Assembly: GCF_010686765.1 (NCBI RefSeq)
Contig: NZ_JAAGWF010000009.1
Coordinates: 248,001-312,000, forward strand
Direction of reading: 5' to 3'
Length of the DNA: 64,000 nt
From: Geodermatophilus sabuli
GTDB taxonomy: Bacteria; Actinomycetota; Actinomycetes; Mycobacteriales; Geodermatophilaceae
Shown here: one piece after another, positions 1 through 34,465 of the stretch
Layout of the letters: each line of letters starts with the position of its first letter
Numbering within the stretch: position 1 is the first letter of the stretch
Position numbers and translations under genes: made by a program
The notes under the pieces: model-generated
Told to the model about the DNA's origin: nothing
The model's database searches: none
Seen by the model: the letters and a program-made list of their open reading frames with translations, nothing else

Positions 1-2368
1 AGACCACCTGGTCGGGCATCTCGGAGACCTGGACCGGGAGGCTGATCTCCCCCATGACGCCGCAGACGGTCACCCGCTCGCCGTCGGAGACCCCCAGCCG
101 CCGTGCGGTGTCCTTGCCGATGCGGGCGACCGGCGGCCGGGCGGTGCCGGCCAGCTCGGGCTCGTCCCGCTGCAGCGTGCCGACGTCGAGCAGCTGCCGC
201 CAGGAGGCCAGCACGGCCTCGTCGTCGGCCAGCTCCGGGTCGGCCGGCGGTGCGACGTCGAGCCCGGTGACCCGCGGCCGGACCGCGACGGCGCCGAGGG
301 CGGCCAGCTCGGCCCGGGCCACCTCGGGAGCCGGCAGCCGCAGGTCGACGTCGAGCTCGTCGGCGATGCCCTGCAGCACGCGGCCGTCGGGCAGCAGTCC
401 GGTGCCGTGCAGGGTCGCGTCGAAGGGCCGCAGCCGGCCCTCCCAGTCCAGGTAGCCGCCGGCCTTCTCGGGAGCCGCGGCGACCGGCAGGACGACGTCG
501 GCGTGCTCGGTGACCGCGCTCGGGAACAGCTCGAGGCTGACCACGAACCCGGCCGCGGCCAGCGCCGCCCGGGCCAGGCGCGGGTCGGGCAGGTCGGCGG
601 GGTCCACGCCGCCGACGAGCAGCCCGCCCAGCCGGCCGTCGCGGACCGCGGTCAGGATCCCGGACGTGTCCCGGCCGGGGGCCTCCGGCAGGTCGGCGAT
701 CCCCCAGGCCGCGGCCACCTGCGCGCGGGCACCGGCGTCGGACACCGACCGGCCGCCGGGCAGCAGGGTCGGCAGCGCGCCGGCCTCCACCGCGCCCCGC
801 TCCCCGGCCCGGCGCGGCACCCACGCCACCCGGACGCCGGTGGCGCGGGCGAGGGCGGCCAGCGCGGAGAACGCCCCCGGCACCTCGGCCAGCCGCTCAC
901 CGGCCAGGACGACGGCGCCGGGCTGCCGGAGCGCCTCGACCGCCGGACCGCCCCACGTGCCCTCGGTCAGGGCGCGCAGCGACCGCGCCTCGGTGCCCGG
1001 GAGCGTGCTGAGCACGGTGGCCGAGAGCTTCTCGGCGGCGCGGGTGACGAACGGCGCGAGGTCGAAGACAGGCAGCCCGCGGGTGCGCACGGCACGGCGC
1101 AGCCGGAGGAAGACGATCGGCGACTCCTCCTCGGGCTCGAAGCCGGCCAGCAGTACGGCCGGCGCCGCGGCGATGTCGTCGTAGGTGACCGCGCCGTTGA
1201 ACGGCCCCGTGCCGGCCACGTGCGCGGCGAGGAAGGCCAGTTCCTCGGCCGAGTGCGCGCGGGCGCGGGCGTCGACGTCGTTGGTGCCCAGCGCCACGCG
1301 GGCGAACTTGGCGTAGGCGTAGGCGTCCTCGACGGTCAGCCGGCCGCCGGGCAGGACGCCGACCCCGCCGGCCGCACGCGCGGCACGCAGTCCCGCGGCC
1401 GCCGCCTCGAAGGCCTCGGGCCAGGAGGCCGGCTGCAGCTCGCCGTCCCGCCGGACCAGCGGGGTGGTCAGCCGGTCGTTGGCGGTGGCGTAACGGAACG
1501 CCCACCGCCCCTTGTCGCAGTTCCACTCCTCGTTGACCTCGGGGTCCTCCCCCGCCAGCCGGCGCAGCACCTTGCCCCGGCGGTAGTCGGTGCGCTGGGC
1601 GCAGCCGGACGCGCAGTGCTCGCAGACGCTGGGCTCGCTGCGCAGGTCGAACGGGCGGGAACGGAACCGGTACTGCGCGCTGGTGAGCGCGCCGACCGGG
1701 CAGATCTGGGTGGTGTTGCCGGAGAAGTAGGACTCGAACGGCTCGTCCTCGTAGACGGCGACCTGCTCCAGGGCGCCGCGCTCGAACAGCTCGATGAAGG
1801 GGTCACCGGCGACCTGCTGGGAGAAGCGGGTGCACCGGGCGCAGAGCACGCAGCGCTCGCGGTCGAGCAGGACCTCGCTGCTGATCGGCAGCGGCTTGGG
1901 ATAGGTCCGCTTGACGTCGACGAACCGGCTCTCGGTGCGGCCGTTGCTCATCGCCTGGTTCTGCAGCGGGCACTCGCCGCCCTTGTCGCAGACCGGGCAG
2001 TCCAGCGGGTGGTTGATCAGCAGCAGCTCCATCGTGCCCTGCTGTGCCTTGTCCGCCACCGGGCTGGTGAGCTGGGTCTTCACCACCATCCCGTCGGTGA
2101 CCGGCATCGTGCAGGAGGCCACCGGCTTGCGCTGGCCCTCCACCTCGACCAGGCACTGCCGGCAGGCGCCGATCGGCTCCAGCAGCGGGTGGTCGCAGAA
2201 CCGCGGGATCTGCACGCCGATCTGCTCGGCGGCCCGGATGATCAGCGTCCCCTTCGGCACGGCGACGTCGAAGCCGTCGATGGTGCAGCGGACGGCGTCC
2301 GGCGGCGTGTGCGGACCGGGCGCGCCCGGCGGGACCGCAGGCGCCGGACCAGGGTTGACGAGGGTCAC
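1..2368 (-). CDS. nuoG: NADH-quinone oxidoreductase subunit G (C-terminus outside window)
   Basis: Largest subunit of the NADH-dehydrogenase module of complex I; it passes electrons from NuoF/NuoE through Fe-S clusters. The frame starts at a GTG preceded by GAGGAGG and about 790 codons are visible before the window edge. Visible parts in order are a plant-type 2Fe-2S ferredoxin domain ([12 protein letters not shown]), the His/Cys and 4Fe-4S region ([24 protein letters not shown]), a CEHCASGC cluster site as in bacterial NuoG, and then a molybdopterin-oxidoreductase-like domain. Last visible gene of the nuoA-G run; nuoH onward should lie to the left. No stop codon is seen, so the 3' end is open. 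Confidence 0.96.
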
Positions 2369-2445
2369 TGGTCCTCCTCGCTGGCGCTCGTCGTCCCGGT
2401 GCCCCGGGGTGCTGGTTGCTGGCAGGCCCTCGCGAGCTCGGTCAT
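2365..2445 (-). CDS. Bridging mini-ORF between nuoF and nuoG (26 codons)
   Basis: A 26-residue frame (begins [10 protein letters not shown], ends SASEEDQ) fills the spacer exactly. Its ATG overlaps the nuoF stop as ATGA and its TGA overlaps the nuoG start as GTGA, and it carries the GAGGAGG Shine-Dalgarno of nuoG. The peptide has no recognisable domain. The DNA contains the GAGCTCGCGAG core seen in dispersed repeats of this window. It may be a relay ORF keeping ribosomes coupled across the gap rather than a functional peptide. Coding status is inferred from geometry only. Confidence 0.35.
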
Positions 2446-3770
2446 GAGGCCACCTTCACGGGCTCGATGCGGAGGGAGCGGCCCAGCCGGGCCTGCTCCT
2501 CCGGGGGCAGCAGGGCGACGTAGTCGTCCTTGAAGTACTTCAGCGAGCTGGTGATGCAGCTGGTGGCGCCGTCGCCGAGCGCGCAGAAGGAGCGGCCCAG
2601 GATGTTGTCGCAGGTGTCGACGAGGACGTCGAGGTCCTGTGCCGTGCCCCGGCCGTGCGCGATCCGCTCCAGGATCTGCACGAGCCAGTAGGTGCCCTCG
2701 CGGCACGGGGTGCACTTGCCGCAGCTCTCGTGCGCGTAGAACTCGGTGAACCGGAGGGTCGCCTCGACGATCGAGTCGGTCTCGTCGAACACCATCAGCG
2801 CGGTGGTGCCGAGCATCGAGCCGGCCGCGGCGACCGAGTCGAAGTCCAGCGGGACGTCGAGGTGCTCCGGCGTGAAGTACGGGGTCGAGGAACCGCCGGG
2901 CGTCCAGAACTTGAGCTGGTGCCCGGGGCGGACGCCGCCGGCCATCGCCAGCAGCTCCCGCATCGTCGTCCCCATGGGGGCCTCGTACTGCCCCGGCCGG
3001 ACGACCCGGCCCGACAGCGAGTAGATCTTCGGCCCGGGCGACTTCTCCGGGCCGAACTCCTTGAACCAGTCGGCGCCGCCGCGGACGACGAACGGCACGC
3101 TGGCCAGCGTCTCGACGTTGTTGATGACCGTCGGCGCCCCGTACAGGCCGGCCACCGCGGGGAACGGCGGCTTGAGCCGGGGCTGCCCGCGGTAGCCCTC
3201 GAGGGAGTCCAGCAGCGCCGTCTCCTCACCGCAGATGTAGGCGCCCGCGCCGGCGTGCACGACGAGTTCCAGGTCGTAGCCCGAGCCCAGGACGTCCCTG
3301 CCGAGGTAGCCGGCGGCGTAGGCCTCCTCGACGGCGGACATCAGTCGCCGGTGGGCGTGCACCGCCTCGCCGCGCACGTAGATGACGGCGAAGGAGGACC
3401 GGATCGCGTAGGCCGAGATGATCACGCCCTCGACCAGCGAGTGCGGGTCGGCCATCATCAGCGGCAGGTCCTTGCAGGTGCCCGGTTCGCCCTCGTCGGC
3501 GTTGACCACCAGGTACTTGGGCATCGCGGCCGGTCCGGTGGGCGTCTCCCCCGGCTTGGGCTGCGGGATGAAGCTCCACTTCATGCCGGTCGGGAAGCCG
3601 GCGCCGCCGCGGCCGCGCAGACCGGAGTCCTTGACCAGCCCGACCAGCTCGTCCGGGGTCATCGACAGCGCCGTGCGCAGCGCCGAGTAGCCCTCGAGCC
3701 GCTCGTAGGTCGCCAGCCGCCAGGACCGGTCGGCGCCCCAGCGGGTGGTGAGCACGGGTGTGAGGGGCAT
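2442..3770 (-). CDS. nuoF: NADH-quinone oxidoreductase subunit F
   Basis: 442-residue NADH- and FMN-binding subunit of complex I, the entry point for electrons. The N-terminal half carries the nucleotide-binding glycine-rich segments ([16 protein letters not shown], then a [15 protein letters not shown] segment). The C-terminal part has the 4Fe-4S N3 motif [12 protein letters not shown]. Full family length. ATG start at 3770, 3 bp after the nuoE stop, so expression is probably coupled to nuoE. Ends just before the mini-ORF that leads into nuoG. Confidence 0.98.
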
Positions 3771-3773
3771 GGC

Positions 3774-4780
3774 TCAGGCCTTTCCGGGGCCCTGGCCGGA
3801 CGTACCCGGCTCGGACCCCGCGGGGGTGTCGGTGCCTGCACGGCCGTCGGGCAGCCGCCGGCCGGCGGGTTCGGGGGCGTCGGGGTGCGAGCCCGCGGCG
3901 CCGGCCTCCTCGGCAGGGGTGTCGGCCGCGGCGACCCGCGCGTCGGCCGCCTCCTGTCCGGGCGTCTGGCCGGTGCGCCCGGACGGTGCGACGGTGTCCC
4001 GTGGTTCCTGGGCGTCGCGGGCCGGGGTCCCCGGGGTGGGCATGGGTGGCGCCGCCTCGCCCCGTTCCTCGGCCAGGCGCAGGCCCGCCAGGGTCGGCCC
4101 GAGGGAGCTGGGCGCGTCGATGGCGGCGGCCATGTCGTAGGGGTCCTCGTACTGGGAGAAACCGGCCAGCTGCCGCGAGACGCCGCGGAAGTCGGTGAGC
4201 GGCGCGCCGCGGGTGGGCGACGGCTTGTCGCCCCGCCGCAGGGCGGCCACCAGCTCGCGGGCGCTGGCGACGTCCTGCTGGTCGTAGAACTCGTAGTCCA
4301 CGGTGACCACGGGGGCGTAGTCGCAGGCGGCCAGACACTCGGCGTGCTCGAGGGTGATCGAGCCGTCGGCCGCGGTCTCGTCGTGGTGGACGCCGAGGTC
4401 GGCGGAGAGCGCGTCCATGATCCGCTGGCCGCCGAGCACGCTGCAGAGGGTGTTGGTGCACACGCTGACCAGGTGCCGGCCGGTGGGACGGCGCTTGTAC
4501 ATCGTGTAGAAGGTCGCGACCGCGCCGACCTCGGCCTTGGTGAGGCCCAGCTCCTCGGCGCACAGCGCGACGCCCTCGGGCGAGACGTACCCCTGGTAGC
4601 TCTGCACCAGGTGCAGCATCGGCAGCAGCGCCGAGCGCGGCTGCGGATAGCGGGCGATGATCTCCCGCGCCTCGAGCCGGGCCTGGTCGGGAAGCGGTGG
4701 CAGGTCGACCGGCGCCGGCTGCACCGGACTGGAGTCCAGTCCGGTGACCGCCGTCCCCTCCGCCGAGCCGGGCAGTGCGC

Positions 4781-4784
<4 letters not shown>
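3774..4784 (-). CDS. nuoE: NADH-quinone oxidoreductase subunit E, with long C-terminal tail
   Basis: Thioredoxin-like 2Fe-2S subunit of the complex I NADH module. The ATG at 4784 overlaps the nuoD stop as ATGA. Residues about 40-230 form the NuoE domain with the cluster ligands CTNTLC and, further on, [10 protein letters not shown]. At 336 residues it is well above the usual 160-250: the last roughly 100 residues are a low-complexity Ala/Pro/Gly/Asp/Thr tail with no fold I recognise. The tail is in frame, with no sign of a frameshift, and ends 3 bp before nuoF. Confidence 0.96.
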
Positions 4785-6099
<1,315 letters not shown>

Positions 6100-6103
<4 letters not shown>

Positions 6104-6186
6104 TGTGCGCTCCGTTCGACTCCGGACTCGTTCCGCTCCTCGGTCGCCGGCGCTCCCTGCGATGCTCGCTCGCCCGTCGTCTTCAT
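6100..6186 (-). CDS. Bridging mini-ORF between nuoC and nuoD (28 codons)
   Basis: A 28-residue frame (begins [10 protein letters not shown], contains [13 protein letters not shown]) spans the spacer exactly: its ATG overlaps the nuoC stop as ATGA and its TGA overlaps the nuoD GTG. The DNA segment GGAGCGGAACGAG near 6123-6135 (minus strand) also occurs in the resB-ccdA spacer, so the spacer looks like an inserted short repeat. The peptide has no known domain. It probably acts, if at all, by keeping translation coupled. Confidence 0.35.
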
Positions 6187-6932
6187 CGGTAGGACCTCCG
6201 GGTGTCCGGCGGCGGGATGGTCGCGTCGTGGTACTCGACGGGCACGCCGCCGAGCGGGTAGTCCTTGCGCTGCGGGTGGCCGTCCCAGTCGTCGGGCATG
6301 AGGATCCGGGTGAGCGCCGGGTGGCCGTCGAAGACGATGCCGAACATGTCCCAGGTCTCGCGCTCCTGCCAGTCCGCCGTCGGGTAGATCCCGGTGACCG
6401 ACGGGACGTGCGGGTCCTCCGCGGTCACGGCCACCTCGAGCCGGATCCGGCGGCGGTAGGTCATCGACGTCAGGTGGAGGACGACGTGGAAGCGCGGTCG
6501 GCCCGCGTCGGCCGCGGGGCCGCCGCTGTCGAGGTAGTCGACCCCGGAGACGCTGCTGCACAGCTCGAAGCGCAGCGCCTCGTCGTCCCGCAGGGCCTGG
6601 ACGAGGGTGAGCAGGTGCTCCCGGGCGACGAAGTAGGTGATCTCGCCACGGTCGACCAGCACCCGCTGCACGGCGGCGGCGTACGTGGCCGCGCCGACCG
6701 CCTCGATCAGCGCGTCGGTGACCTCGTCGAACCAGCCGCCGTAGGGCCGCTCGGTGGAGTGCAGCGCGACCGCACCACCCGGCTCGACGCGCACCAGTCC
6801 GCCGAAGCCGGAGGTGTCCCCGCTGCCCGAGACGCCGAACGAGCCCTTGCGGAAGCCCCCACCGGATGCGGTGCTCGCCGCGTAGCCGGCCTCCTCGCGG
6901 CCCGGGACGACCTCGCCGCCGTCGTTGCTCAT
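6183..6932 (-). CDS. nuoC: NADH-quinone oxidoreductase subunit C
   Basis: 249-residue 30-kDa-type subunit of the peripheral arm. The ATG at 6932 overlaps the nuoB stop as ATGA. The first 60 or so residues are a Gly/Ser-rich extension; the NuoC domain follows, ending in the family signature with [39 protein letters not shown]. This diagnostic segment makes the call secure. Confidence 0.97.
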
Positions 6933-7597
6933 CGCCGTTCCTCCGGGAGGAGGACGGCGTTGCCGCCCCGCTGCTCGATCGCGAACTGGCCGGTGCGGCG
7001 GTCGGCGGCGGCCCGCTCGTAGGCCTGCCGTGCGGCCTTGTCCACCCGCACGGTCGAGGGCATCTCCACGTGCAGGTCCGGCGCCGTCCCGGCGGCGCGG
7101 GCCTCCGCCAGCTGCTTGGCCCGCTTCGGCCCGAGCGGCTCGTTCATGATCTTGTGGTGCAGCTTGAGGATCGCGTCGGTGAGCATCTCCGGCCGCGGCG
7201 GGCAGCCCGGCAGGTACATGTCCACCGGGACGATGTGGTCGACGCCCTGCACGATCGCGTAGTTGTTGAACATCCCGCCGGAGCTGGCGCACACGCCCAT
7301 CGCCAGCACCCAGCGCGGCTCGGGCATCTGGTCGTAGATCTGCCGGAGGACCGGGGCCATCTTCTGGCTCACCCGCCCGGCGACGATCATCAGGTCCGCC
7401 TGCCGCGGGGAGGCCCGGAAGACCTCCATGCCGAAGCGGGCCAGGTCGTAGCGGCCGGCACCGGTGGCCATCATCTCGATCGCGCAGCAGGCCAGGCCGA
7501 AGGTGGCCGGCCAGAGGGAGGACTTGCGGGTCCAGTTGACCAGCTTCTCCACCGTCGTCAGCAGGACGCCGTTCGGCAGCTTCTCCTCGAGTCCCAT
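6929..7597 (-). CDS. nuoB: NADH-quinone oxidoreductase subunit B
   Basis: 222-residue subunit carrying the terminal 4Fe-4S cluster N2 that reduces menaquinone. The tandem-cysteine ligand motif [13 protein letters not shown] is at about residue 35-47, [19 protein letters not shown] follows, and the last ligand is in the PGCPPRPE motif. ATG start at 7597; only 14 bp separate it from nuoA. A C-terminal extension of about 40 residues follows the conserved domain, as in other actinobacterial NuoB. Confidence 0.98.
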
Positions 7598-7611
7598 CAG
7601 GCAGCCCCTCG

Positions 7612-7974
7612 TCAGTCCCAGTCGAGCCCGCCGCGACGCCAGACGTAGGCGTACGCGATGAAGACGGTGCCGATGAACACGACCATCTCGACGAGCCCGA
7701 ACAGGCCCAGCGCGTCGTTGGCCACGGCCCACGGATAGAGGAAGACGATCTCGATGTCGAAGACGATGAACAACATCGCGACCAGGTAGTACTTGACCGG
7801 GAAGCGGCCACCGGTCAGCGGCTGGTCGACCGGCTCGATGCCGCACTCGTAGGCGGCCAGCTTGGCCCGGTTGTAGCGGCGCGGCCCGACGAACGGCGCG
7901 ACCGTGACCGAGAACAGCGCGAACGCCGCGGCCAGCGCGAAGAGCCCCACGATCGGGACGTAGGTCGAGAGCAT
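7612..7974 (-). CDS. nuoA: NADH-quinone oxidoreductase subunit A
   Basis: 120-residue membrane subunit with three hydrophobic helices and the family loop [15 protein letters not shown] followed by [29 protein letters not shown] at 7974 with AGGGTG upstream. First nuo gene of the operon, preceded by the menJ-like gene and a 98-bp leader containing a perfect palindrome (8025-8041). The upstream frame is open into nuoA without a stop, but the family N-terminus begins at this ATG. Confidence 0.97.
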
Positions 7975-8024
7975 CAGCGGCACCCTACGGTGGCGGAGAT
8001 CACGGACAGGGCAGGGGACGACGA

Positions 8025-8041
8025 TCGACACAGCGTGTCGA
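8025..8041. promoter_or_regulatory. Perfect 17-bp palindrome in menJ-nuoA spacer
   Basis: TCGACAC-AGC-GTGTCGA: 7-bp arms around a 3-bp centre, 51 bp before nuoA. It is too short to be a convincing terminator and has no T tract. It could be an operator or an mRNA processing hairpin that uncouples nuo from the upstream gene. No regulator can be assigned. Confidence 0.4.
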
Positions 8042-8072
8042 CATGGCGTCGGAGCGGAAGGACTCGCACGGC

Positions 8073-9332: not shown

Positions 9333-9365
9333 GGCGACGCCCCCTCCCCGGAGTTCCCCACTCGC

Positions 9366-9383: not shown

Positions 9384-9466
9384 AGTCGGTCGGTCCCTAC
9401 TCTAGGCCGGGATGTGAGCCTGGTGACAAGTGGCCACCGGAGACCGCACGTCACGGTTCCGGAAGA

Positions 9467-20117: not shown

Positions 20118-21756
20118 TCGGGAGGGCCTCCGGTTCCGGTGCGGCCCCGCCGGACGGCGGAGCGGGTGGTGCGGGGGCGCGGTCGGCCAGCGCCGTCCGC
20201 AGCCGGTCGGTCAGCTCGGCGAACCGGGTGGCGCTCTCGCCGCCGCCCCGGGTCAGCGAGCCGACGGTGAGCACGGTACCGCCGCCGTCGGGGGCGGGTT
20301 CGGCGCGGGCGAAGACCCGCTGCCGGCGCAGCAGCAGCAGGGCGAGCAGGCCGAGCAGCAGGCTGATGGCCGCGCCGAGCACCCACAGCTGGCCCGGGTC
20401 GTGGGAGAACTGCAGGGCGGCGAACTGCCGGTAGCCGTCGAACGTGATCGCCGTGCCGTCGGGGAGTTCCAGCGTCTCCCCGACCGACAGGTTGGCCCGG
20501 CCGACCTCGGTCAGCCGGCCGCGCTCGATCTGGTCGGCGTCCAGCGAGTACACCGACTGCGGCAGGCCCGAGTCCAGCCCGAGGTAGCCCTGGTAGGCCA
20601 GGATCGCCACCTGCGGGGCCAGCGGCCGCGGGTCGATCGAGGTGAGGATGCCGCCCTGCAGCACGCCGGTGGGCGCGAAGAAGCCCTCGATGGCCAGCTG
20701 GTCGTCGGTGCCGGCGCCGAGGTCGGGCAGCTTGAGGGCGCCCTCGCTGGCCATCGTCGCCTGGTCGGCGGGCAGGAAGGGCGCGGAGACGTCGGTGAAC
20801 GCCGTCCCGTCGGGGAGCGTGATGCTGAACCGGGGGCTGTAGCCGTGGCCGGTCACGTAGACCCGGTCGCCGTCGACGCGCAGGGGGTCGTTGACGCCGA
20901 TCGTCGTGGGCCGGCCCTCCTCCCCGGGAGCGCCGTAGGAGATGTCGGCGGTGAAGGAGGCCGCGGTGAGGTCCTCCTCGTACTCGGCGCGGAAGTCCTC
21001 GAGGTCGACGCACAGCGGGGTCAGGTCGCCGCCCTCGACCAGCGGACCGGCCGAGTAGGTGTCGTACTGCTGGAACGAGTTGCAGAAGCCCTGTTCCTCG
21101 GTGACCAGGATGCTGCCCTCGTAGCCCCACAGCTTGCCGCCGGCCAGGCCGAGCAGGAGGGCCACCAGCGAGAGGTGGAAGAGCAGGTTGCCGGTCTCCT
21201 TCCACGCGCCCTTCTCCGCAGAGAGCTCGGGACCGGCGTCCCCGGAGCGGCGGACGACGCGGAAGCGGGCCACCCGGAGCTCCTCCTCGACCACGTCGAG
21301 GGCGGCCGCCTCCGCGAGCGGGGTGGGCAGCGCGGCGGAGTCGGGCAGTCGCAGCAGCCGGCGCGGGGCCGGGGGCGGCGCGGCCGTCAGCGCGCGTGCG
21401 TGTTCGACCGCCCGGGGCACGACGCAGCCGATGAGGGAGACGAACAGCAGCAGGTAGACCGCGGCGAACCACGGGGAGCTGAAGACGTCGAACAGGTAGA
21501 GCCGGTCCAGCAGCGGTGCCAGCGTCGGGTGGTCGGCGAAGTACTGCGAGACGTTGTTCTGGGACAGCGCCCGCTGCGGCAGCAGCGACCCGGGGATCGC
21601 CGCCAGCGCGAGGAGGAACAGCAGGATGATCGCCGTGCGCATGGCGGTCAGCCGGCGCCACCAGCGCAGCCACAGCCCCAGCGCACGGTGGCCGGCGGAG
21701 GGCCGGGCCGGCGGCTGCGGCGCGGCGGCCGGCCGCGGCGGGGCGACCGTGCTCAC
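20107..21756 (-). CDS. resB: Cytochrome c biogenesis protein ResB (Ccs1)
   Basis: 549-residue partner of CcsB in system II cytochrome c assembly. Three N-terminal helices (AIILLFLLALAAIPGSLLP; FAAVYLLLFVSLIGCVVP; NLLFHLSLVALLLGLAGG), a large extracytoplasmic domain, and a last helix near residue 460 (WVLGAAISLLLGLLALLLL). GTG start at 21756, preceded by GGAG, overlapping the stop of a 29-codon mini-ORF. Confidence 0.94.
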   Translation of the reverse strand: MSTVAPPRPAAAPQPPARPSAGHRALGLWLRWWRRLTAMRTAIILLFLLALAAIPGSLLPQRALSQNNVSQYFADHPTLAPLLDRLYLFDVFSSPWFAAVYLLLFVSLIGCVVPRAVEHARALTAAPPPAPRRLLRLPDSAALPTPLAEAAALDVVEEELRVARFRVVRRSGDAGPELSAEKGAWKETGNLLFHLSLVALLLGLAGGKLWGYEGSILVTEEQGFCNSFQQYDTYSAGPLVEGGDLTPLCVDLEDFRAEYEEDLTAASFTADISYGAPGEEGRPTTIGVNDPLRVDGDRVYVTGHGYSPRFSITLPDGTAFTDVSAPFLPADQATMASEGALKLPDLGAGTDDQLAIEGFFAPTGVLQGGILTSIDPRPLAPQVAILAYQGYLGLDSGLPQSVYSLDADQIERGRLTEVGRANLSVGETLELPDGTAITFDGYRQFAALQFSHDPGQLWVLGAAISLLLGLLALLLLRRQRVFARAEPAPDGGGTVLTVGSLTRGGGESATRFAELTDRLRTALADRAPAPPAPPSGGAAPEPEALPSDR

Positions 21757-21842
21757 GGCTGGACTCCGAGCTCGTTCCGCTCCCCGCTCGACGCCGCGGG
21801 TCGCCTCCGCGCTCGCTCCGCTCCTCGCTCGCTGGCGCTCAC
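21753..21842 (-). CDS. Bridging mini-ORF between ccdA and resB (29 codons)
   Basis: Its GTG overlaps the ccdA stop as GTGA and its TGA overlaps the resB GTG as GTGA, so it exactly fills the spacer. The peptide starts VSASERGAER and contains SSGERNELGVQP, resembling the EERNESGV end of the nuoC-nuoD mini-ORF. The underlying DNA is GAGCG-rich repeat sequence. A translation-relay role is inferred; the peptide itself has no domain. Confidence 0.35.
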   Translation of the reverse strand: MSASERGAERARRRPAASSGERNELGVQP

Positions 21843-22660: not shown

Positions 22661-22664
22661 CTCC

Positions 22665-25745: not shown

Positions 25746-25747
25746 GG

Positions 25748-26731
25748 TCAGGAGCGGGAGACCAGGCGCGCCGCCTCGACCGCCCAGTAGGTGAGGACCG
25801 TTCCGGCACCCGCCCGGCGGATCGCCGTGAGCGTCTCGAGGATGGCCCGCTCGCGATCGACCCAGCCGTTGGCGGCGGCCGCCTCGACCATCGCGTACTC
25901 GCCGCTGACCTGGTAGGCGCTGACCGGGACGTCGACGGCGTCGGCGACCCGGGCGACGATGTCCAGGTAGGGCAGCGCGGGCTTGACCATGACCGCGTCG
26001 GCGCCCTCGGCCAGGTCCTGCGCCACCTCGCGCAGCGCCTCGTCGGCGTTCGGCGGGTCCATCTGGTAGGTCGAGCGGTCGCCGAACTGCGGCGCCCCCT
26101 CGGCGGCCTCCCGGAACGGGCCGTAGAACCCCGAGGCGTACTTCGCGGCGTAGGCGAGGATCGGCACCTCGGTGTACGCGGCGGCGTCCAGGCCGGCACG
26201 GATGGCGGCGACCTGCCCGTCCATCATCCCGCTGGGCGCCACCAGGTGCGCCCCGGCCTGGGCCTGGGCGACGGCCACCGCGGCGTAGCGGTCCAGCGTG
26301 GGGTCGTTGTCGACCACGCCGGCCGGCGTGACGACCCCGCAGTGGCCGTGGTCGGTGTACTCGCACAGGCACAGGTCGGCCAGGAGGACCAGCTCGTCGC
26401 CGAGGTCGGCACGCAGCTGCTGCAACGCGACGTTGACGATGCCGTCGGCGGCGTCGGCCTGGGACCCGACCGGGTCCTTGTCCGCGGGGATGCCGAAGAG
26501 CATCAGCCCGGAGATGCCGGCCTCGGCCGCCTCGTGCGCGGCCTTCCGCAGCGAGTCCAGCGTGTGCTGGACGACGCCGGGCATGGAGTTGATCGGCACC
26601 GGCTCGGCGATGTCCTGCTTGACGAAGACCGGCAGCACGAGGTCGGCGGGGGCCAGCCGGGTCTGCGCGGTCATCCGCCGCAGCGCGGGCGTCGACCGCA
26701 GCCGCCGACCGCGCGCGAACCCGGCAGTCAC
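25748..26731 (-). CDS. hemB: Porphobilinogen synthase (delta-aminolevulinate dehydratase)
   Basis: 327-residue enzyme condensing two aminolevulinates. The metal-site cysteines are in [18 protein letters not shown], indicating a zinc-dependent form. [19 protein letters not shown] contains the first Schiff-base lysine and [19 protein letters not shown] the catalytic one. The GTG start overlaps the hemD stop as GTGA. Full family length. Confidence 0.97.
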
Positions 26732-28275
26732 TTCGTGTCCCCGTCCTCCGCCTTGAGCGACTCGGCGTAGTCGGCGAGGGCGTCGACCAGCGGCCCGACG
26801 GCGGCGGTCTCCGGCTGCACGTCGACCCGCAGGCCGAACTCCGTGGCGCTCTCGGCGGTGGCCGGGCCGATGACCGCGACGACCGTCTTCGCGTGCGGCT
26901 TGCCGGCGATGCCGACCAGGTTGCGCACGGTGCTCGACGACGTGAAGCAGACGGCGTCGAAGCCGCCGCCCTTGATCGCCTCGCGGACCGCGGCAGCCGG
27001 CGGGGCGGCCCGGACGGTCCGGTAGGCGGTGACGTCGTCGATCTCCCAGCCGCGCTCCTTGAGGCCGGCCGCCAGCGTCTCGGTGGCGATGTCGGCACGG
27101 GGCAGCAGCACCCGGTCGATCGGGTCGAACACGTCGTCGTAGGGCGGGAAGTCGGCCAGCAGGCCCTGGCTGGACTGCTCACCCGAGGGCACCAGCTCCG
27201 GCTGGATCCCGAACGCGCGCACCGCGTCGGCGGTCTGCTCGCCGACGCAGGCCACCTTCACGCCGGCGAAGGCGCGGGCGTCCAGGCCGAGCTCGGTGAA
27301 CTTCTCCCGCACGGCCTTGACCGCGTTCACCGAGGTGAACACGATCCAGCCGTAGCGGCCGGTGACCAGGCCCTTGACGGCGCGGTCCATCTGCGCCGGG
27401 CTGCGCGGGGGCTCGACCGCGATCGTCGGCACCTCGACCGGCACGGCGCCGTACGCGCGCAGCCGGTCGCTCATCTCGCCGGCCTGGTCCTTGGTGCGCG
27501 GCACCAGGACCCGCCAGCCGAACAGCGGCCGGCTCTCCCACCAGGAGAGCTTGGCCCGCTTGTCGACCGCCGTGCCCACGGTCGCCACGACGCGGCCGGT
27601 GACGGCGTCGAGCCCGGCGGTCTTCTCCGCGACGGCGGCCAGCTTCGCGGTGACGCTCTTCTGACCGGTGCCCGAGCCGCTGGTGGTGACCACGATCGGG
27701 GTGGACCCGGAGAGGCCGCCCTCGACCAGCCGCGCGGCGGCGTCGGGGAGGTCCTCGGCGTTGCCCTGCAGCACCAGCGGCGCGCCCAGGCCGGTCGCCG
27801 CCGCGGCCAGTGCGGCCAGGTCGGCCTCACCGCCGCGCAGGTCGGCCGACAGCGACGTGCCGCCCAGCGCGACCCCGGCGAAGGCCGGCACCGCCGTGGA
27901 CGGCGCGACACCGGGGACCACGTCGAAGCCGACCGAGGTCCGGCCGACGGCGAGCACCTCCTTGACCACGCCGTCGGAGGTGAACGGGTCACCGGCGACC
28001 AGCCGGACGACGGTGGCGCCACCCTTGGCCGCGGCGACGGCGGCCTTGGCGATCTCGGCCGGCTCGCCGGTGGCGGGCGTCAGCTCCAGGTCCGGCCGGT
28101 CGGCGCGGACGGCGTCGGCGAGCGCCGGCGGCACGTCCGGGTCGACGAGGACGACCTCGGCCCCGGCGAGCGCTGCCGTCGCGCGGGCGGTCAGCATCCC
28201 GGGGTCGCCCGGGCCGGCGCCGACGAAGACGACCTTGCCGGCCGACCCGCCGTTCTGCTTGCGGAAGCGCGTCAT
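26728..28275 (-). CDS. hemD: Fused uroporphyrinogen-III C-methyltransferase / uroporphyrinogen-III synthase
   Basis: 515 residues. Residues 14-250 form a tetrapyrrole methylase (SUMT/CobA-like) domain with VGAGPGDPGMLTARA and VVRLVAGDPFTSDG; residues about 265-510 form HemD, which closes the tetrapyrrole ring (YGWIVFTSVNAVKAVREKF; DAVCFTSSSTVRNLVG). The fusion is common in actinobacteria. ATG at 28275 with AGGAAGAGGAG upstream. The methylase domain would divert the product toward siroheme or cobalamin precursors if active. Confidence 0.95.
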   Translation of the reverse strand: MTRFRKQNGGSAGKVVFVGAGPGDPGMLTARATAALAGAEVVLVDPDVPPALADAVRADRPDLELTPATGEPAEIAKAAVAAAKGGATVVRLVAGDPFTSDGVVKEVLAVGRTSVGFDVVPGVAPSTAVPAFAGVALGGTSLSADLRGGEADLAALAAAATGLGAPLVLQGNAEDLPDAAARLVEGGLSGSTPIVVTTSGSGTGQKSVTAKLAAVAEKTAGLDAVTGRVVATVGTAVDKRAKLSWWESRPLFGWRVLVPRTKDQAGEMSDRLRAYGAVPVEVPTIAVEPPRSPAQMDRAVKGLVTGRYGWIVFTSVNAVKAVREKFTELGLDARAFAGVKVACVGEQTADAVRAFGIQPELVPSGEQSSQGLLADFPPYDDVFDPIDRVLLPRADIATETLAAGLKERGWEIDDVTAYRTVRAAPPAAAVREAIKGGGFDAVCFTSSSTVRNLVGIAGKPHAKTVVAVIGPATAESATEFGLRVDVQPETAAVGPLVDALADYAESLKAEDGDTK

Positions 28276-28364
28276 CGCGTGCTCCTCTTCCTGGCCCCGG
28301 AGGGCCTGTGTGCGGGGGTTCGGGAGGCCGGGGACTGCTGCCCGGCCCGGGGGGAGGAGCTCAT
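28272..28364 (-). CDS. Bridging mini-ORF between hemC and hemD (30 codons)
   Basis: Its ATG overlaps the hemC stop as ATGA and its TGA overlaps the hemD start as ATGA, filling the spacer exactly. It encodes a Ser/Arg/Pro-rich peptide starting [10 protein letters not shown] and embeds the hemD Shine-Dalgarno. No domain. Same geometry as the mini-ORFs at 2365, 6100, 21753 and 34361. Confidence 0.35.
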
Positions 28365-29299
28365 CTGCGGGCGACCGCCATGAGGTCGGCGGCGCCGCGG
28401 TCGAGCAGGTCGGCGGCGAGCTCACGGCCCAGCCGCAGCGCGTCGGCCGGCGGCCCGGTCAGCGACCCGCGGACGCCGTCGCTGCCGTCGAGCGCGGTGA
28501 CCGAGCCGCGGAGGAACAGCTCGGGGCCCTCCTCGCCCTCGGCCAGCTCGGCGTAGGCGGCGACCGGCGCACTGCAGCCGGCCTCGAGGGTGGCCAGCGT
28601 GGTCCGCTCGGCCAGCACGCACGCCCGGGTGGCGGCGTCGTCGAGCTCCCCCAGGAGCGCCAGGGTGCCGGCGTCGTCGGCCCGGCACTCCACGGCCAGG
28701 GCGCCCTGCGCCGGCGCGGGCAGCACCTGCAGCGGGTCGAGGGTCTCGGTGACGGCGTCCAGCCGGCCCAGCCGGGCCAGCCCGGCGCGGGCGAGCACGA
28801 CGGCGTCCAGGTCACCCGGCACGACCCTGGCCATGCGCGTGTCGACGTTGCCCCGGATGGGCACGACCTCCAGGCCGAGCCCCAGGGCGCGCAGCTGGGC
28901 GACCCGGCGCGGCGCACCGGTGCCGACGGTGGCCCCGGCCGGCAGCTCGCCGAGCGTCAGCCCGTCGCGGGCGACGAGCGCGTCCCGCGGGTCCTCCCGG
29001 GGTGGGACGGCCGCGATCGTCAGGCCCGGCTCGGGCAGCGTGGGCAGGTCCTTGTAGCTGTGCACGGCGACGTCGACGACGCCGTCGAGGAGGGCGCGGC
29101 GGATGGCCGCGACGAAGACGCCGGTGCCGCCGAGCTGGGCGATGGCCGCGGACGACCGGTCCCCCTCGGTGCTGATGTGCACCAGCTCGACCGGCACCCC
29201 GCTGGCCGCGGTGATCGCGTCGGCGACCGACTGCGACTGGGTGTGCGCCAGCCGGCTGGCCCGGGTGCCCAGCCGCAGCGTCGAGGTCGTGGTCGTCAC
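28361..29299 (-). CDS. hemC: Hydroxymethylbilane synthase (porphobilinogen deaminase)
   Basis: 312-residue enzyme polymerising four porphobilinogens. Motifs [40 protein letters not shown] and [11 protein letters not shown] are diagnostic. The dipyrromethane cofactor cysteine is Cys242 in [13 protein letters not shown]. The GTG start overlaps the hemA stop as GTGA. Confidence 0.97.
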
Positions 29300-30738
29300 G
29301 CGCCACCACCGGCGCCCAGGTCGTCGGGGTCGACGGCGACCGCCTCGGCGAGGTTCGACCGGTCCGGGGCCACCTCGGCGTCGATGCCGAGGCCGAACAG
29401 CGCACGCAGGGCGTCCGCGTAGTCCACCCCGCCCGGGGCGCTGGCCAGCTCCTTCACCCGCACCGTCGGCTCGTGCAGCAGCTTGTCCACGACCCGGCGC
29501 ACCGTGCGGGCGACCTCGTCCCGGGCCCGGGTGTCGAGGTCGGGCAGCCGGGCGGACAGCCGCAGCAGCTCGGCGTCGACGACGTCGGCGGCCTGGCTGC
29601 GCAGCGCGGAGACCGTCGGCGCCACGGCGGCCGCCTGCCGCTCCGCGCGCAGGAGGGCGGTCTCTGCCTCGATCAGGGCGTGCGCGGCGGCGACGTCGTC
29701 GGCGGCCACCGGGCTGGCCGAGGGGTGCCCGCCGAGGCTCCGCTCCGGCGACAAGAGGGCGTCCGCCGGGTCGCCGTGCAGCAGGGCCCCGGCGCCGCCG
29801 CCCTGCGCGAGGGCGCCGACCCGTTCGCCCTGCAGGAGGGCGAGGTCGACCACGTGCACGCCGGGCAGCCCGGCGACGCCCGGGTCGACGTCCCGGGGCA
29901 GGGCGAGGTCGATGACCACCAGCGGGCGGTGTGCCCGGTCGGCCATGGCGTGGGCGACCACCTCGGTGCCCACGACGAGGCCGCGGGCCCCGGTGCAGGT
30001 CACCAGCACGTCGGCGGCGGCGAGCTCCGCGGGCAGGTCGGCCAGCTCGGCGGCGCGGCCCTCGACGGACGTGGCCACGCGCTGCGCGTGCGCGGGGGTG
30101 CGGCTGATGACGGTGACCGCGGCGCCGCGCCGGGCCAGGGTCGTGGCGGCCAGCGCGCCCATGGAGCCGGCACCGACGACCAGCACCGGGCGTCCGTCGA
30201 GGGAGCCGATGCGGTCCTCGGCGCGCTCCAGCGACACCGACACCAGCGAGGCGCCGGCCCGGTCGATGCCGGTCTCCGAGTGCACCCGCTTGCCGACCCG
30301 CAGCGCCCGCTGGGCGACCGGGTGCAGGGCGCGGCCGACGGCGCCCTCCTCCCGGGCCAGGGCGTAGGCGGCGCGCAGCTGGCCGAGCACCTGGGTCTCG
30401 CCGACGACCATGGAGTCCAGCCCGGCGGCCACGGTGAACAGGTGGGTGACCGCCTGGTCCTCGTAGTGCACGGTCACGTACGGGGAGAGCTCCTCCACCG
30501 TGGCGCCCGCCTGCCGGGCGAGCACCCGGCTCACCTCGGTGACGCCGCCGTGGAAGCGGTCGACCTCGGCGAAGACCTCGACCCGGTTGCAGGTGGCCAG
30601 CACGATGGCCTCGCTGACGTGCTCGGTGCCGACGAGCTCGTGCAGCGCCTTGACGGTCTCGTCGGCACCCATCGCGAACTGCTCGAGCAGCGCGACCGGC
30701 GCGGTCTGGTGGCTGACACCCACGGCCAGGAGGCTCAC
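29296..30738 (-). CDS. hemA: Glutamyl-tRNA reductase
   Basis: 480-residue enzyme making glutamate-1-semialdehyde from Glu-tRNA, the entry to C5-pathway heme synthesis. N-terminal [15 protein letters not shown]; nucleophile Cys50 in [33 protein letters not shown]-binding [14 protein letters not shown]. The GTG start overlaps the rex stop as GTGA, so translation is coupled to the redox repressor. Full length, with an Ala/Gly-rich insertion near residue 320. Confidence 0.97.
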
Positions 30739-31400
30739 GCGAGCACCTCCAGGGACCCGGCCGCGTCGGAACGCTGCTGACCGAGGAAGGCGAGCACCTG
30801 CAGCTCGACGGAGAGGTCGACCTGGCGGACGTCGACCTCGGGGGGTGCGGCGAGTGCCACCGGCGCGAAGTTCAAGATGCTCCTCACCCCGGCCGTGGTG
30901 AGCCGGTCGCAGACCGGCTGCGCCACCTCGGCCGGTGTCGCGATGACCCCGATCGTGGCTGCCGTCGCGGCGACCACCTCGTCCAGCTCCGCCATGGGAC
31001 GGACCGGCTGGCCGCCGATCCGCTGGCCCACGCGGGCGGGCGCGGCGTCGAACAGCCCGACGAAGCGGAACCCGCGGCTGCCGAAGCCCGCGTAGTCGGC
31101 CAGGGCCGTGCCCAGGTTGCCGATCCCCACCAGGACACAGGCGCGGGACTGCTCGACGCCGAGCACGCGGGCGATGCGGTCGCGCAGGGTGGCCACGTCG
31201 TAGCCGACGCCCCGCACGCCGCACGGGCCCAGGTGCGAGAGGTCCTTGCGCAGGCCGGCCGGGTTGACGCCGGCCGCGGAGGCCAGCTCACCGGAGGACA
31301 CGGTGCTGCGACCACCCCCGGCGAGGCCGGTGAGCACCCGCAGGTACACGGCCAGGCGGGCGACGGTGGCCTCGGGGATCCGGGGCCGGGACTGCGTCAC
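30735..31400 (-). CDS. rex: Redox-sensing transcriptional repressor Rex
   Basis: 221-residue NADH/NAD+ sensor. The N-terminal winged helix ([17 protein letters not shown], then [23 protein letters not shown]) precedes a Rossmann domain ([19 protein letters not shown]) and the distal [18 protein letters not shown]. The GTG at 31400 is used because the frame upstream encodes no Rex sequence. Heads the rex-hemA-hemC-hemD operon, as in Streptomyces. A Rex-type operator overlaps its promoter, so it is probably autoregulated. Confidence 0.96.
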
Positions 31401-31500
31401 GGGGGCAACTCCACAGCGGCCGCAGCCGCTCGTCCGGCGGGTGCCGGATGCGGGCCTACGACATCGGGGACGCCGGGCGGGACACCGTCCGGCGTGCGCC

Positions 31501-31529
31501 ACGGTAACCGCTTGTGAACGCAGGAACAA
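31501..31529 (-). promoter_or_regulatory. rex-hem operon promoter with overlapping Rex operator
   Basis: On the minus strand, -35 TTGTTC (complement of 31524-31529), a 17-bp spacer, and -10 TACCGT (complement of 31501-31506). The Rex-type site TTGTGAACGCAGGAACAA (31512-31529) covers the -35 box and most of the spacer. Its outer TTGTGAA and ACAA match the perfect site at 9366; the inner right arm is degenerate. Binding here would block RNA polymerase. Confidence 0.7.
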
Positions 31530-31597
31530 AGTCGCGGAGGACCGGATCGGCCTCAGTCCGGGACATACGGCACCGACTGTGGTGGAGACCATAGCAA

Positions 31598-31653
31598 GGC
31601 CCCTCCCGCCCCCCGCGACTCGGCTGCCCCCCGGCGGGCCACCGCGAGGGGCC
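31598..31653. terminator. Hairpin terminator after glutaredoxin gene
   Basis: GGCCCCTC (31598-31605) pairs with GAGGGGCC (31646-31653), with GC-rich inner pairing possible. It lies directly beyond the stop of the minus-strand glutaredoxin gene and before the rex promoter, separating the two transcripts. Confidence 0.5.
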
Positions 31654-31655
31654 GA

Positions 31656-31907
31656 TCAGGCCAGGCCGAGGTCCCGGCGCAGCCGCGGCACGTCCACCGT
31701 GAAGTAGGAGTGCTCGGTCCCGTCGAGGAGCACGACCGGCACCCGGTCGCCGTACTCGGCCTGCAGCGCCGGATCGGCGTCGACGTCGACCGCGCTGACG
31801 CCGACCCGCGCCTCGGCGGCGATCTGCTCCAGCGTGGTGGCCGCCGTCGCGCAGAGATGGCAGCCGGCGCGGGTCATCAGCTGCAGCCGGACCGCGGGCT
31901 CAGTCAT
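31656..31907 (-). CDS. Glutaredoxin-like thiol protein
   Basis: 83-residue glutaredoxin-fold protein with the redox motif TRAGCHLCATAATTL near the N-terminus, the cis-Pro segment YGDRVPVVLLDG and an SYFTVDVPRLRRDL end. Matches the small glutaredoxin conserved upstream of hemA in actinobacteria (Rv0508 position). ATG start at 31907, overlapping the acyl-CoA ligase end by 8 bp. Redox partner unknown. Confidence 0.88.
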   Translation of the reverse strand: MTEPAVRLQLMTRAGCHLCATAATTLEQIAAEARVGVSAVDVDADPALQAEYGDRVPVVLLDGTEHSYFTVDVPRLRRDLGLA

Positions 31908-33459
31908 CGCCGCCACCTCCCGCTGCCGGCTCGGTGCCGCCGTCCTCCTCCGACCGGGTGAGCCCCAGCTCACGCAGCCGCGCCCGGCTGACCTTGCCGG
32001 TGAGCGAGTGCGGCAGCGCGCTCATCACCTGCACCGACGTGGGCACCTTGTACCGCGCCAGGGCTCTGGCCGCGTGCTCCCGCAGCTGCTCGAAGGTCAG
32101 TTCCGCGCCCGGTCGCAGCGCGACCACCGCCCGGACCGCGGCGCCGGTGCGCGCGTCGGGCACCCCGATGACGGCGCTCTCGGCGACGGCGGGGTGCGCG
32201 TCGAGCACCCGCTCGACCTCGGCCGGGTACACGTTGAAGCCGCTGACCAGGATGAGGTCGCTGCGCCGGTCGACCAGGTGCAGGTCGCCGTCCTCGTCGG
32301 CGTACGCGAGGTCGCCGGTCGCCAGCCAGCCCCCGGCGTCAGGGCCGTCGGTGCCGTCGGGCCAGTAGCCGGCGAACAGGTTGGCGCCGCGCACCCAGAT
32401 CTCACCGGGACCGTCCTCGGCCAGCCGACCGGAGGAGTCGCCGTCGGCCGGCTCGTGCAGGGCGGTGTCGCGCAGCTCGACCTCCACCCCGGGGAGCGGT
32501 CCACCGATGCAGGCGGGTTTGGCCCGGCCCGTCGCCAGCGTGCTGGCGACCACCGGGCAGGCCTCGGTGAGCCCGTAGCCCTCCCAGACGGTGACCGCCG
32601 CGCGGTCCCGCATGGCGGTCCACACCGCCGCGGGCAGCGGCGCGGCGCCGGAGGAGGCCATCCGGACGGCGGCGAACGCGCGACGCAGGTCGGCGTCGGA
32701 GCCCGCGGCGTCGGCGGCGGCCAGCCAGGCCTGGTACATCGGCGGTGCCCCCGGGACGGCGGTCACCTGCTCGCGCGCCATGAGCGCCAGTGACTCAGCC
32801 GGGTCGAAGGTCTCCAGCAGCACGGCGCAGGCGCCGGTGGCCGCGACCAGCCCGAAGCCGGCGTTGAGCCCGTAGACGTGGAACAGCGGCAGCACCAGCA
32901 GCACCCGGTCGTCGGACCGCACCGGCGGCGGCTCCAGCGCCAGGCACTGCTCCTGGTTGGCACGCAGGGCCGCCGCCGGGAGCATCGCTCCCCGCGGCCG
33001 GCCGGTCGTGCCGCTGGTGTACGCGAGGAAGGCCAGCGCGCCGGGCGTCTCGCCGAGGTCGGGGGCCGCCCGGTCGCCGGACGGCGGGCCGGCCGTCACC
33101 GGGACCCCGGCCACCTCCGGCCGCGCGCCGGCGGCGACGAGCAGCGCCGCGCCGGAGTCCGCCAGCACGAACTCCAGCTCCGGGTCGGTGTAGGCGGTGT
33201 TCACCGGCACCACCACCAGCCCCGCGCGCAGCGCGCCGAGCGTGGCCCGGAGCCAGTCGACCCCGTTGGGCAGCTGCACGGCCACCCGCTCCCCCGGCGT
33301 CAGGCCCCGTGCGGCGTAGCCCGCGGCCGCCCGGTCCACCTCGGCGTCGAGCTGGGCCCAGCTCAGCCGCTGGTCCCCGGCCACCACGGCCGGTGCGTCG
33401 GGGCGGTCACGTGCCGCCGCGCGGACGAGCGTGGACAGCGACGAGCCGGCCTCTGACAC
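31900..33459 (-). CDS. Acyl-CoA ligase (AMP-forming)
   Basis: 519-residue ANL-superfamily enzyme. P-loop-like AMP motif LAFLAYTSGTTGRPRGAML, then WEGYGLTEACPVVAST, GWLATGDLAYADEDGDLHLVDRRSD and DLILVSGFNVYPAEVERVL, and the C-terminal lysine in HSLTGKVSRARL. Substrate probably a fatty or aryl acid; it cannot be specified. The GTG at 33459 is preceded by GGAGGAGAGG; an in-frame extension to 33777 lacks family sequence. Divergent from the sigma factor gene. Confidence 0.9.
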   Translation of the reverse strand: MSEAGSSLSTLVRAAARDRPDAPAVVAGDQRLSWAQLDAEVDRAAAGYAARGLTPGERVAVQLPNGVDWLRATLGALRAGLVVVPVNTAYTDPELEFVLADSGAALLVAAGARPEVAGVPVTAGPPSGDRAAPDLGETPGALAFLAYTSGTTGRPRGAMLPAAALRANQEQCLALEPPPVRSDDRVLLVLPLFHVYGLNAGFGLVAATGACAVLLETFDPAESLALMAREQVTAVPGAPPMYQAWLAAADAAGSDADLRRAFAAVRMASSGAAPLPAAVWTAMRDRAAVTVWEGYGLTEACPVVASTLATGRAKPACIGGPLPGVEVELRDTALHEPADGDSSGRLAEDGPGEIWVRGANLFAGYWPDGTDGPDAGGWLATGDLAYADEDGDLHLVDRRSDLILVSGFNVYPAEVERVLDAHPAVAESAVIGVPDARTGAAVRAVVALRPGAELTFEQLREHAARALARYKVPTSVQVMSALPHSLTGKVSRARLRELGLTRSEEDGGTEPAAGGGGDD

Positions 33460-33662
33460 GGACCTCTCCTCCGGTGGCGCGCTCCGACCGCCGCCCGGGA
33501 CGGGCCTCCACACGCCGAGGACGCGGGTGGCGTGGACGGGCTGCAGCGATGTTGTCACCATGGGCGCAGCCCCGCAGCACCGCGCGCCGCGCCCGACCCG
33601 GGCCGGCGCGCCCGGACCGGCCGGACGCGGCCAGCGGGCCCACGAGGAGGTCGGACGCCCGC

Positions 33663-34364
33663 ATGCCGCAGTCGCGCCCGGTGGACGAGCGCCTGCCCGG
33701 CGCCCTCCCGGCGGGATCCCCCGAGCGCTCGCGTCCGGAGCCCCGGCCGCGACCGCAACCCTCCCGCCGCGCCACACCCCCGGAGGCCGCTGCCCCGCCG
33801 GAGGACGCCGTCCCGCCGGCCCCGGACGTGTGGGAGCTGGTCCGCCGGGCGCAGGAGGGGGACGCCGAGGCGTTCGGCCGGATCTACGACCACTACGTGA
33901 CGATGGTCCACCGCTACGCCCGCCACCGGGTCGGCGACCGGGCCCTGGCGGAGGACGTCACCAGCGAGACCTTCGTGCGGGCGCTGCGGCGGATCGACTC
34001 GCTGTCGTTCCAGGGCCGCGACGTCGGCGCCTGGCTGGTCACCATCGCCCGGAACATCATCATCGACCAGGGCAAGAGCAGCCGGTACCGGTTGGAGGTC
34101 AGCACGGCCGACATGCGCGACGCCGACCAGGCCACCGAGGGCCCGGAGGACGCCGTCGTCACCCGGCTGGCCAACGAGGAGCTGCTCTCCTGCATCCGGC
34201 AGCTCGGCGGTGAGCAGCAGGAGTGCGTGTCCCTCCGCTTCCTGCAGGATCTGTCGGTCGCCGAGACCGCCGAGGTCATGGGCAAGACGGAGGGAGCGGT
34301 GAAGGCACTGCAGCACCGCGCCGTCCGCCGGCTGGCCGACCTGCTGCCGGAGGGGCTGCGGTGA
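33663..34364 (+). CDS. bldN: ECF sigma factor, BldN type
   Basis: 233 residues. A Pro/Arg-rich N-terminal extension of about 55 residues precedes sigma region 2 (VWELVRRAQEGDAEAFGRIYDHY; LAEDVTSETFVRALRRI; QGRDVGAWLVTIARNIIIDQ) and region 4 (QQECVSLRFLQDLSVAETAEVMGKTEGAVKALQHRAVRRLADLLP). These match Streptomyces BldN, a developmental sigma factor made with a cleavable N-terminal pro-sequence. An in-frame ATG at 33549 would lengthen the extension to about 93 residues, close to the Streptomyces form; GAGGAGG 12 nt before 33663 favours the shorter form only weakly. The anti-sigma gene follows. Confidence 0.88.
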   Translation: MPQSRPVDERLPGALPAGSPERSRPEPRPRPQPSRRATPPEAAAPPEDAVPPAPDVWELVRRAQEGDAEAFGRIYDHYVTMVHRYARHRVGDRALAEDVTSETFVRALRRIDSLSFQGRDVGAWLVTIARNIIIDQGKSSRYRLEVSTADMRDADQATEGPEDAVVTRLANEELLSCIRQLGGEQQECVSLRFLQDLSVAETAEVMGKTEGAVKALQHRAVRRLADLLPEGLR

Positions 34365-34465
34365 CCGCCGACCGGCCCGCCGTATCGGATGCCCCCGCCG
34401 GCTCGTTGCCCCGGCGAGAACACCGCCCCCACGACCACGCCCGACACCTCGGAGGCACCCGGTGA
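34361..34465 (+). CDS. Bridging mini-ORF between bldN and anti-sigma gene (34 codons)
   Basis: Its GTG overlaps the bldN stop as GTGA and its TGA overlaps the anti-sigma start as GTGA. The peptide begins VTADRPAVSD and ends HARHLGGTR; no domain. The downstream GGAGG lies inside its last codons. Same design as four minus-strand mini-ORFs in this window, but with no repeat sequence, suggesting the geometry rather than one DNA element is selected. Confidence 0.35.
   Translation: MTADRPAVSDAPAGSLPRREHRPHDHARHLGGTR

Follow-up and report, generated by a model that had tools for sequence, protein, structure and literature searches.

Five spacers between neighbouring same-strand genes of the soil actinobacterium Geodermatophilus sabuli are each filled by one short open reading frame (mini-ORF) that overlaps the gene on either side, and we think it likely that such bridged spacers are relay spacers between operon genes, resembling the mycobacterial interspersed repetitive units (MIRUs). 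All five lie in the window, i.e. the whole stretch of 64,000 nucleotides of contig NZ_JAAGWF010000009.1 (positions 248,001 to 312,000) that was analysed; in the list below and throughout, RTGA stands for ATGA or GTGA (R = A or G).

2365..2445, minus strand: nuoF-nuoG mini-ORF, 26 codons plus stop; type-1 element (77 bp) located where an RTGA serves as both stop and start
6100..6186, minus strand: nuoC-nuoD mini-ORF, 28 codons plus stop; type-2 repeat
21753..21842, minus strand: ccdA-resB mini-ORF, 29 codons plus stop; weak type-2-like sequence
28272..28364, minus strand: hemC-hemD mini-ORF, 30 codons plus stop; old spacer whose phase is kept across Geodermatophilaceae
34361..34465, plus strand: bldN-rsbN mini-ORF, 34 codons plus stop; old spacer with a promoter-like pair in many relatives

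The lengths of these mini-ORFs (81, 87, 90, 93 and 105 nt) are all divisible by 3. In each, the ATG or GTG start shares bases with the TGA of the upstream gene, the closing TGA overlaps the downstream ATG or GTG in the same way, no stop lies inside, and there is a GGAG or GGAGG whose end lies 4-7 nt upstream of the next start. This bears out the first-pass annotation, which had described five such mini-ORFs, each with the Shine-Dalgarno sequence of the next gene inside it. The gene ends at the five spacers were reproduced by a codon-pair gene caller, in which the start score combines Shine-Dalgarno and start codon, overlaps of 1 and 4 nt are exempt from the overlap penalty, and bridged spacers receive no bonus. 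Family matches above the cut-off support the names nuoF and nuoC; those of hemD and BldN fall below it (BldN family TIGR02952, 197 bits against a cut-off of 206), and ccdA has weak DsbD-like matches only. The name ccdA is taken over from the annotation, as are resB and rsbN, which had no family match in the profile search of window proteins; hemC, nuoD, nuoE, nuoG and RegX3 are presumed names, in part given by position.

The window has 22 same-strand spacers of 5-200 nt; RTGA flanks five of them on both sides, and all five are in phase (phase 1, i.e. a length of 1 modulo 3) and open. The chance of five out of five in phase is 0.004, though this set was chosen by eye. The other 15 spacers with an RTGA or CTGA stop are scattered (phases 5/4/6). 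The absence of the pattern from CTGA-stop spacers, remarked on in the first-pass annotation, follows from the definition itself. The five spacers are, moreover, mixed: the first is clearly a 77-bp repeat, another carries a second repeat, a third weakly resembles that second repeat, and the remaining two are old spacers matching neither.

Repeats at filled and empty junctions

The nuoF-nuoG junction of the window carries the type-1 element; six of the 20 genus relatives (L107-L110, L117 and L118) have it there too, and in others the sequence goes straight from the stop/start into nuoG. For instance, the empty site of L111 reads GTGA and then nuoG, and the filled site of its tree-close relative L109 reads GTGA, 73 nt, GTGA and nuoG. 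Among 20 genus genomes, nuoC and nuoD share an overlap of 4 nt (-4 overlap) in 12 and are separated by a spacer in eight. All eight spacers have phase 1 and RTGA at both ends, their contents are unlike, and their gaps are 10 (four cases), 25, 55, 79 and 157 nt; the type-2 repeat is also found at this junction in L110 (genome G023). Of 41 relatives, 20 have a -4 overlap at the ccdA-resB junction; type-1 elements occupy it in L026, L036, L039 and L070.

The 77-bp element was missed by short-word repeat searches and was first recognised from orthologous spacers printed side by side. Its consensus, GTGACCGAGCTCGCGAGGTCAC...CACAGCA...CCGACGAGCGCCAGCGAGGAGG...GTGA, recurs at unrelated junctions. R1, a sequence-only model of type 1, was built from 20 rows including the nuoF-nuoG copy, which it therefore matches as one of its own rows (E 8.3e-17). 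In the own genome, R1 gives 27 matches at E<=0.01 and 25 at E<=0.001, with the 18 best at 54-76 bits. All 26 genus genomes carry the element, with 4-91 matches each (best 150 candidates per genome scored), as do 13 of 13 further named Geodermatophilaceae, with 1-42 matches, one of them at E 1.5e-4 only; beyond this family, weak matches only were seen, in two of 19 named genomes. Of the 27 own-genome copies, 22 run up to a called RTGA start, 11 have an upstream RTGA stop at their beginning as well, and six precede a gene with an opposite-strand upstream neighbour; type 1 thus seems to target the start codon, whether or not a stop overlaps it.

To count distinct copies, one partial match and 12 identical in sequence were removed from 122, leaving a set that leans to loci chosen as best matches. 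With RTGA required at both ends, 87 of 94 copies are in phase and all 87 of these are open; 15 more copies do not have an RTGA end. Tandem arrays with a 77-bp step occur in G005, G020, G034 and G036. They can be read as chains of 81-nt mini-ORFs in L309 (81+81+81) and L311 (81+81), and they give no chain reading in L310, where the array does not resolve, or in L308, where the upstream gene is not called.

The type-2 repeat, of about 80 bp and reading approximately GAGCGAGCATCGCAGCGAGCGCCAGCGAGCGAGGAGCGGA, has 26 matches in the collected DNA including the seeds; besides nuoC-nuoD and, in weak form, ccdA-resB, it is found at other sites. The nhmmer value at nuoC-nuoD is 9.2e-17, this copy being itself one of the seven seeds; ccdA-resB gives two part matches (E 5e-5) despite being a seed. 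Type-2 tandem repeats at L022:3443-3596 and L012:13189-13352 recur every 84 bp, which is divisible by 3, in contrast to the 77-bp spacing of type 1.

In addition, several type-1 copies with other arrangements were observed. Near 7.7-7.9 kb of L025, L031, L035, L036 and L070, a copy lies 5' of the positional first gene of the hem cluster; its final RTGA is absent, and the element ends at a GTG without a following A. At L117:4948-5058 and in the hemC-hemD spacer of L038, the 5' palindrome of the element is duplicated, 33 bp apart, with the frame kept. In L182 (own genome, C100:254968-255046), the first RTGA is altered and the upstream frame appears to cross the element, ending at the downstream start.

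Phase and open frame in relatives and genome samples

The closest relatives in the HemC scan fall in Geodermatophilaceae. All 47 hemC-hemD junctions compared have RTGA as the upstream stop, and in 36 the gap has phase 1, with gap lengths that include 61, 70, 73, 76, 79, 85, 88, 91, 103, 109, 124, 133 and 148 nt. The set for the null test was limited to the 40 junctions where the called start is RTGA and the gap is positive, seven rows being dropped (one -4 overlap and six called starts other than RTGA). These comprise 34 single bridges, two two-step chains (L028 and L040), no broken case, and four spacers (L026, L031, L032 and L065) that read in frame into hemD from the -4 overlap. In both chains, the spacer has phase 0 and is rescued by a second mini-ORF. 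The in-phase spacers contain 0, 12 and 1 stops in the mini-ORF, +1 and +2 frames, respectively.

A similar picture is observed for bldN-rsbN, where phase 1 is found in 27 of 29 junctions and all 22 with RTGA ends and gaps below 250 nt are bridged; seven of the 29 rows were dropped beforehand for the null test. With rsbN placed by homology, 30 of 35 spacers have phase 1 and the mini-ORF ends in RTGA in 28. Of nine bldN loci without a detectable rsbN, seven show no RTGA-ended mini-ORF. Beyond Geodermatophilaceae, a bridging mini-ORF is present at bldN-rsbN in Spirilliplanes (L077) and Nocardioides (L096). When first-order Markov spacers with random length change were used as the null, 30% of hemC-hemD and 24% of bldN-rsbN spacers were bridged, and another 30% and 23%, respectively, extended in frame; the observed bridging, 36 of 40 and 22 of 22, exceeds this control. 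Judged on this comparison, the idea of a relay is well supported by lengths that vary under fixed phase, frame and overlaps and by spacers that interrupt the -4 overlaps of relatives. The interpretation proposed in the first-pass annotation is thus supported in part.

The bldN-rsbN spacer of many relatives also holds a recurrent promoter-like pair, CGTAAC...CGTTG (CGTATC...CGTTG in the window), which we take to match the sigma-BldN consensus. This raises the possibility that the spacers are promoters or RNA elements in which the frame is incidental. In agreement with it, rsbN of S. venezuelae is driven by its own BldN-dependent promoter (PMC4255298), and MIRUs can drive expression of regX3 independently of senX3 (PMC4213456). 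On the other hand, neither a promoter nor a hairpin requires a length of 1 modulo 3 or RTGA at both ends, and the stops in the in-phase bldN-rsbN spacers lie outside the mini-ORF frame (1, 26 and 2 in the mini-ORF, +1 and +2 frames), making this explanation very improbable. The kept open frames could likewise mean that the mini-ORFs encode functional small proteins; but their length and sequence vary between relatives, and the recurrent words of bldN-rsbN overlie the promoter-like pair in the DNA, so that we regard this as the least probable of the accounts weighed here.

Outside the window, spacers were sampled from 669,541 bp of the G. sabuli genome and another 400,000 bp from the single-contig relative G009. 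Of the 34 that have RTGA on either side, 21 are in phase, against 11 expected (binomial p 6e-4), and 20 are fully bridged; the proportion in phase is lower for other TGA-stop spacers (89/246, Fisher p 0.004). Spacers without repeat motifs follow the same tendency (13/22 in phase, p 0.012).

Several observations, given here and in the next paragraph, weigh against a relay kept by selection. The phases (0/1/2) of ccdA-resB are mixed, 2/9/30, with 20 of the 30 being -4 overlaps, and with rsbN placed by homology, seven of 35 bldN mini-ORFs have no RTGA end. A larger or autonomous parent element was not found at 37 five-prime and 31 three-prime motif sites, which cover part of the collected DNA (whole genomes were not searched). 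The six of 27 type-1 copies with an opposite-strand upstream neighbour imply that type 1 is not confined to settings where it could couple a gene to the one upstream. Type-1 copies of non-standard length are in phase in only 6 of 13 cases, so the in-phase state of many repeats may be due to descent. Indeed, descent could account for the whole pattern if an in-phase 77-bp master copy, targeted to RTGA, had been inherited, the open frame being a by-product and coupling not now selected; the likeness of the type-1 copies is in keeping with this. However, hemC-hemD and bldN-rsbN belong to neither type 1 nor type 2, yet their phase survived many length changes; the nuoC-nuoD spacers are in phase in spite of their unlike content; and mycobacterial MIRU units of four lengths, described below, obey the same rule. 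We therefore consider descent alone unlikely.

The second group of adverse points concerns chance. In a genome of 75% GC, stops are scarce and spacers will often have RTGA on both sides; with 24-30% of random RTGA-ended spacers bridged, single examples mean little, and random hemC-hemD spacers are bridged or extending in 60% of cases. The 40 hemC-hemD and 22 bldN-rsbN spacers share ancestry and are not independent trials. One control class outside the window (non-RTGA stop context, start without a following A) leans to the same phase (71/169, p 0.011), and 30 hemC loci mostly outside Geodermatophilaceae show no excess, with 8 of 19 RTGA-RTGA spacers in phase; two of these loci, filed as other actinobacteria, are titled as metagenome-assembled genomes of Geodermatophilaceae (L080 and L087). 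Since that control class leans likewise and these loci have no excess, we regard the signal across the genome as moderate and possibly limited to the family. Nevertheless, the counts outside the window, the bridging at hemC-hemD and bldN-rsbN, and the scatter of control spacers taken from the same loci, for which CTGA is the usual stop (e.g. 12/16/16 and 6/13/7 in phases 0/1/2), make chance an extremely improbable explanation.

A possible relay and its likeness to MIRUs

In the relay that we favour, short repeats of 77 bp (type 1) or about 80 bp (type 2) would insert at an RTGA start codon, which is often also the stop of the upstream gene, leaving RTGA at each end of the repeat. A ribosome finishing the upstream gene would restart at the first RTGA, translate the mini-ORF of 26-34 codons, stop at the second RTGA beside the Shine-Dalgarno sequence carried by the insert, and restart on the downstream gene. 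Such a chain of -4 overlaps could restore the coupling lost through the spacer. Directly seen in the sequences are the site of insertion, the empty sites, the dispersal of the repeats and the conserved phase and frame; repeat movement, translation of the mini-ORF, coupling, and selection as the cause of the kept frame are what we infer from this arrangement. The peptide itself is probably irrelevant, the open frame being what is kept, and hemC-hemD and bldN-rsbN would be old spacers held under the same constraint, perhaps worn-down inserts. About 20 nt between genes nearly abolishes coupling in E. coli and Haloferax reporters (PMC10666635); hence a spacer of 73 nt would need a relay. Every relay step would be an ordinary ATGA/GTGA overlap, as known from termination-reinitiation at -4 overlaps (PMC10666635, PMC6728339), but here at least two steps would act in series over roughly 60-230 nt, a range called 'uncoupled' by the distance rule.

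The first-pass annotation knew of no named system of this kind. One already exists, since mycobacterial MIRUs have the same arrangement (PMC12548453): they are short dispersed repeats, forming tandems, at operon start codons, and contain an ORF that couples to the following gene by a -4 overlap (PMC12548453, PMC4213456, PMC2734929). There are 41 MIRU locations in M. tuberculosis H37Rv (PMC2734929), and the units at senX3-regX3 measure 77 and 53 bp (PMC4213456). Type 1 is similar in being a short dispersed repeat whose 77 bp fall within the MIRU range of about 50-101 bp. It sits at start codons with the TGA motif at both ends, as seen in the own-genome copies and in the filled and empty sites, carries an internal ORF overlapping its neighbours by 4 nt, and forms tandem copies at some loci. 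The MIRU motif goes by the label DTGA, and Supply 1997 is reportedly the reference for MIRUs.

Despite this likeness, MIRUs have no detectable sequence similarity to type 1 or type 2. A MIRU profile gave a best E of 2.3 against the collected DNA, mostly Geodermatophilaceae, and no match against the window, and the reverse search gave none. R1 matches 66 of 148 Mycobacterium-group genomes at E<=0.01, with a best score of 24.6 bits compared to the 54-76 bits of the best own-genome copies. The host family also differs, and in Geodermatophilaceae spacers matching neither repeat obey the frame rule as well. As far as sequence can tell, the Geodermatophilaceae spacers would work like MIRUs while kinship with them is not supported, and they are best described as a MIRU-like variant; that an apparently unrelated sequence family shares this design points to convergence.

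Other intergenic small ORFs are comparable in part. Many of those in Enterobacteriaceae begin near the upstream stop or finish at the downstream start (PMC11188072), but they are treated as candidate genes, and a two-sided overlap acting as a relay is not described in the available portion of that paper. A translation-aborting intergenic small ORF of Salmonella likewise promotes translation of the next gene (PMC8092293), but by its abstract the account is given in terms of mRNA structure. In the open-licence literature, no report of such elements in Geodermatophilaceae was found, and the term 'MIRU-like' was met in one paper only, on Trichodesmium.

More tentatively, a general rule could be proposed, by which inserts that break a -4 overlap, whatever their sequence or origin, persist mainly if they form a chain of start/stop overlaps; MIRU, type 1 and type 2 would have reached that grammar independently. 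We hold this to be possible but somewhat doubtful. If true, many 'uncoupled' spacers of 50-200 nt would in fact be coupled. Relay spacers as such would break the intergenic-distance rule used to judge translational coupling of operon genes. For a repeat that targets start codons, bringing its own start, stop and ribosome site would also explain its spread within housekeeping operons (nuo, hem) without silencing them.

For comparison, senX3-regX3-like junctions were found via the regulator at 49561-50244 of the window, which provides one further feature:

50241..50244, minus strand: genes for a histidine kinase and a RegX3-like regulator, overlapping by ATGA; a junction type that holds MIRUs in mycobacteria and is empty here, listed for comparison only

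Fifty Mycobacterium-group loci were examined; three of the first 30 were too short, and the start was located in seven of the other 20. Ten distinct units of 50, 53, 77 or 101 bp came from nine loci (L261, L273, L274, L283, L288, L293, L294, L302 and L303), and in all ten the length plus 4 is divisible by 3. The ATGA junction is empty in one genome (L284) and filled in another (L303). MIRUs of senX3-regX3 are said to be confined to M. leprae and the M. tuberculosis complex (PMC4213456). Since units were seen in these nine Mycobacterium-group loci, the range of this MIRU type may be wider than published. The genomes with senX3-regX3-like MIRU units, including tandem 53-bp arrays, have sizes of about 3.2 to 6.2 Mb.

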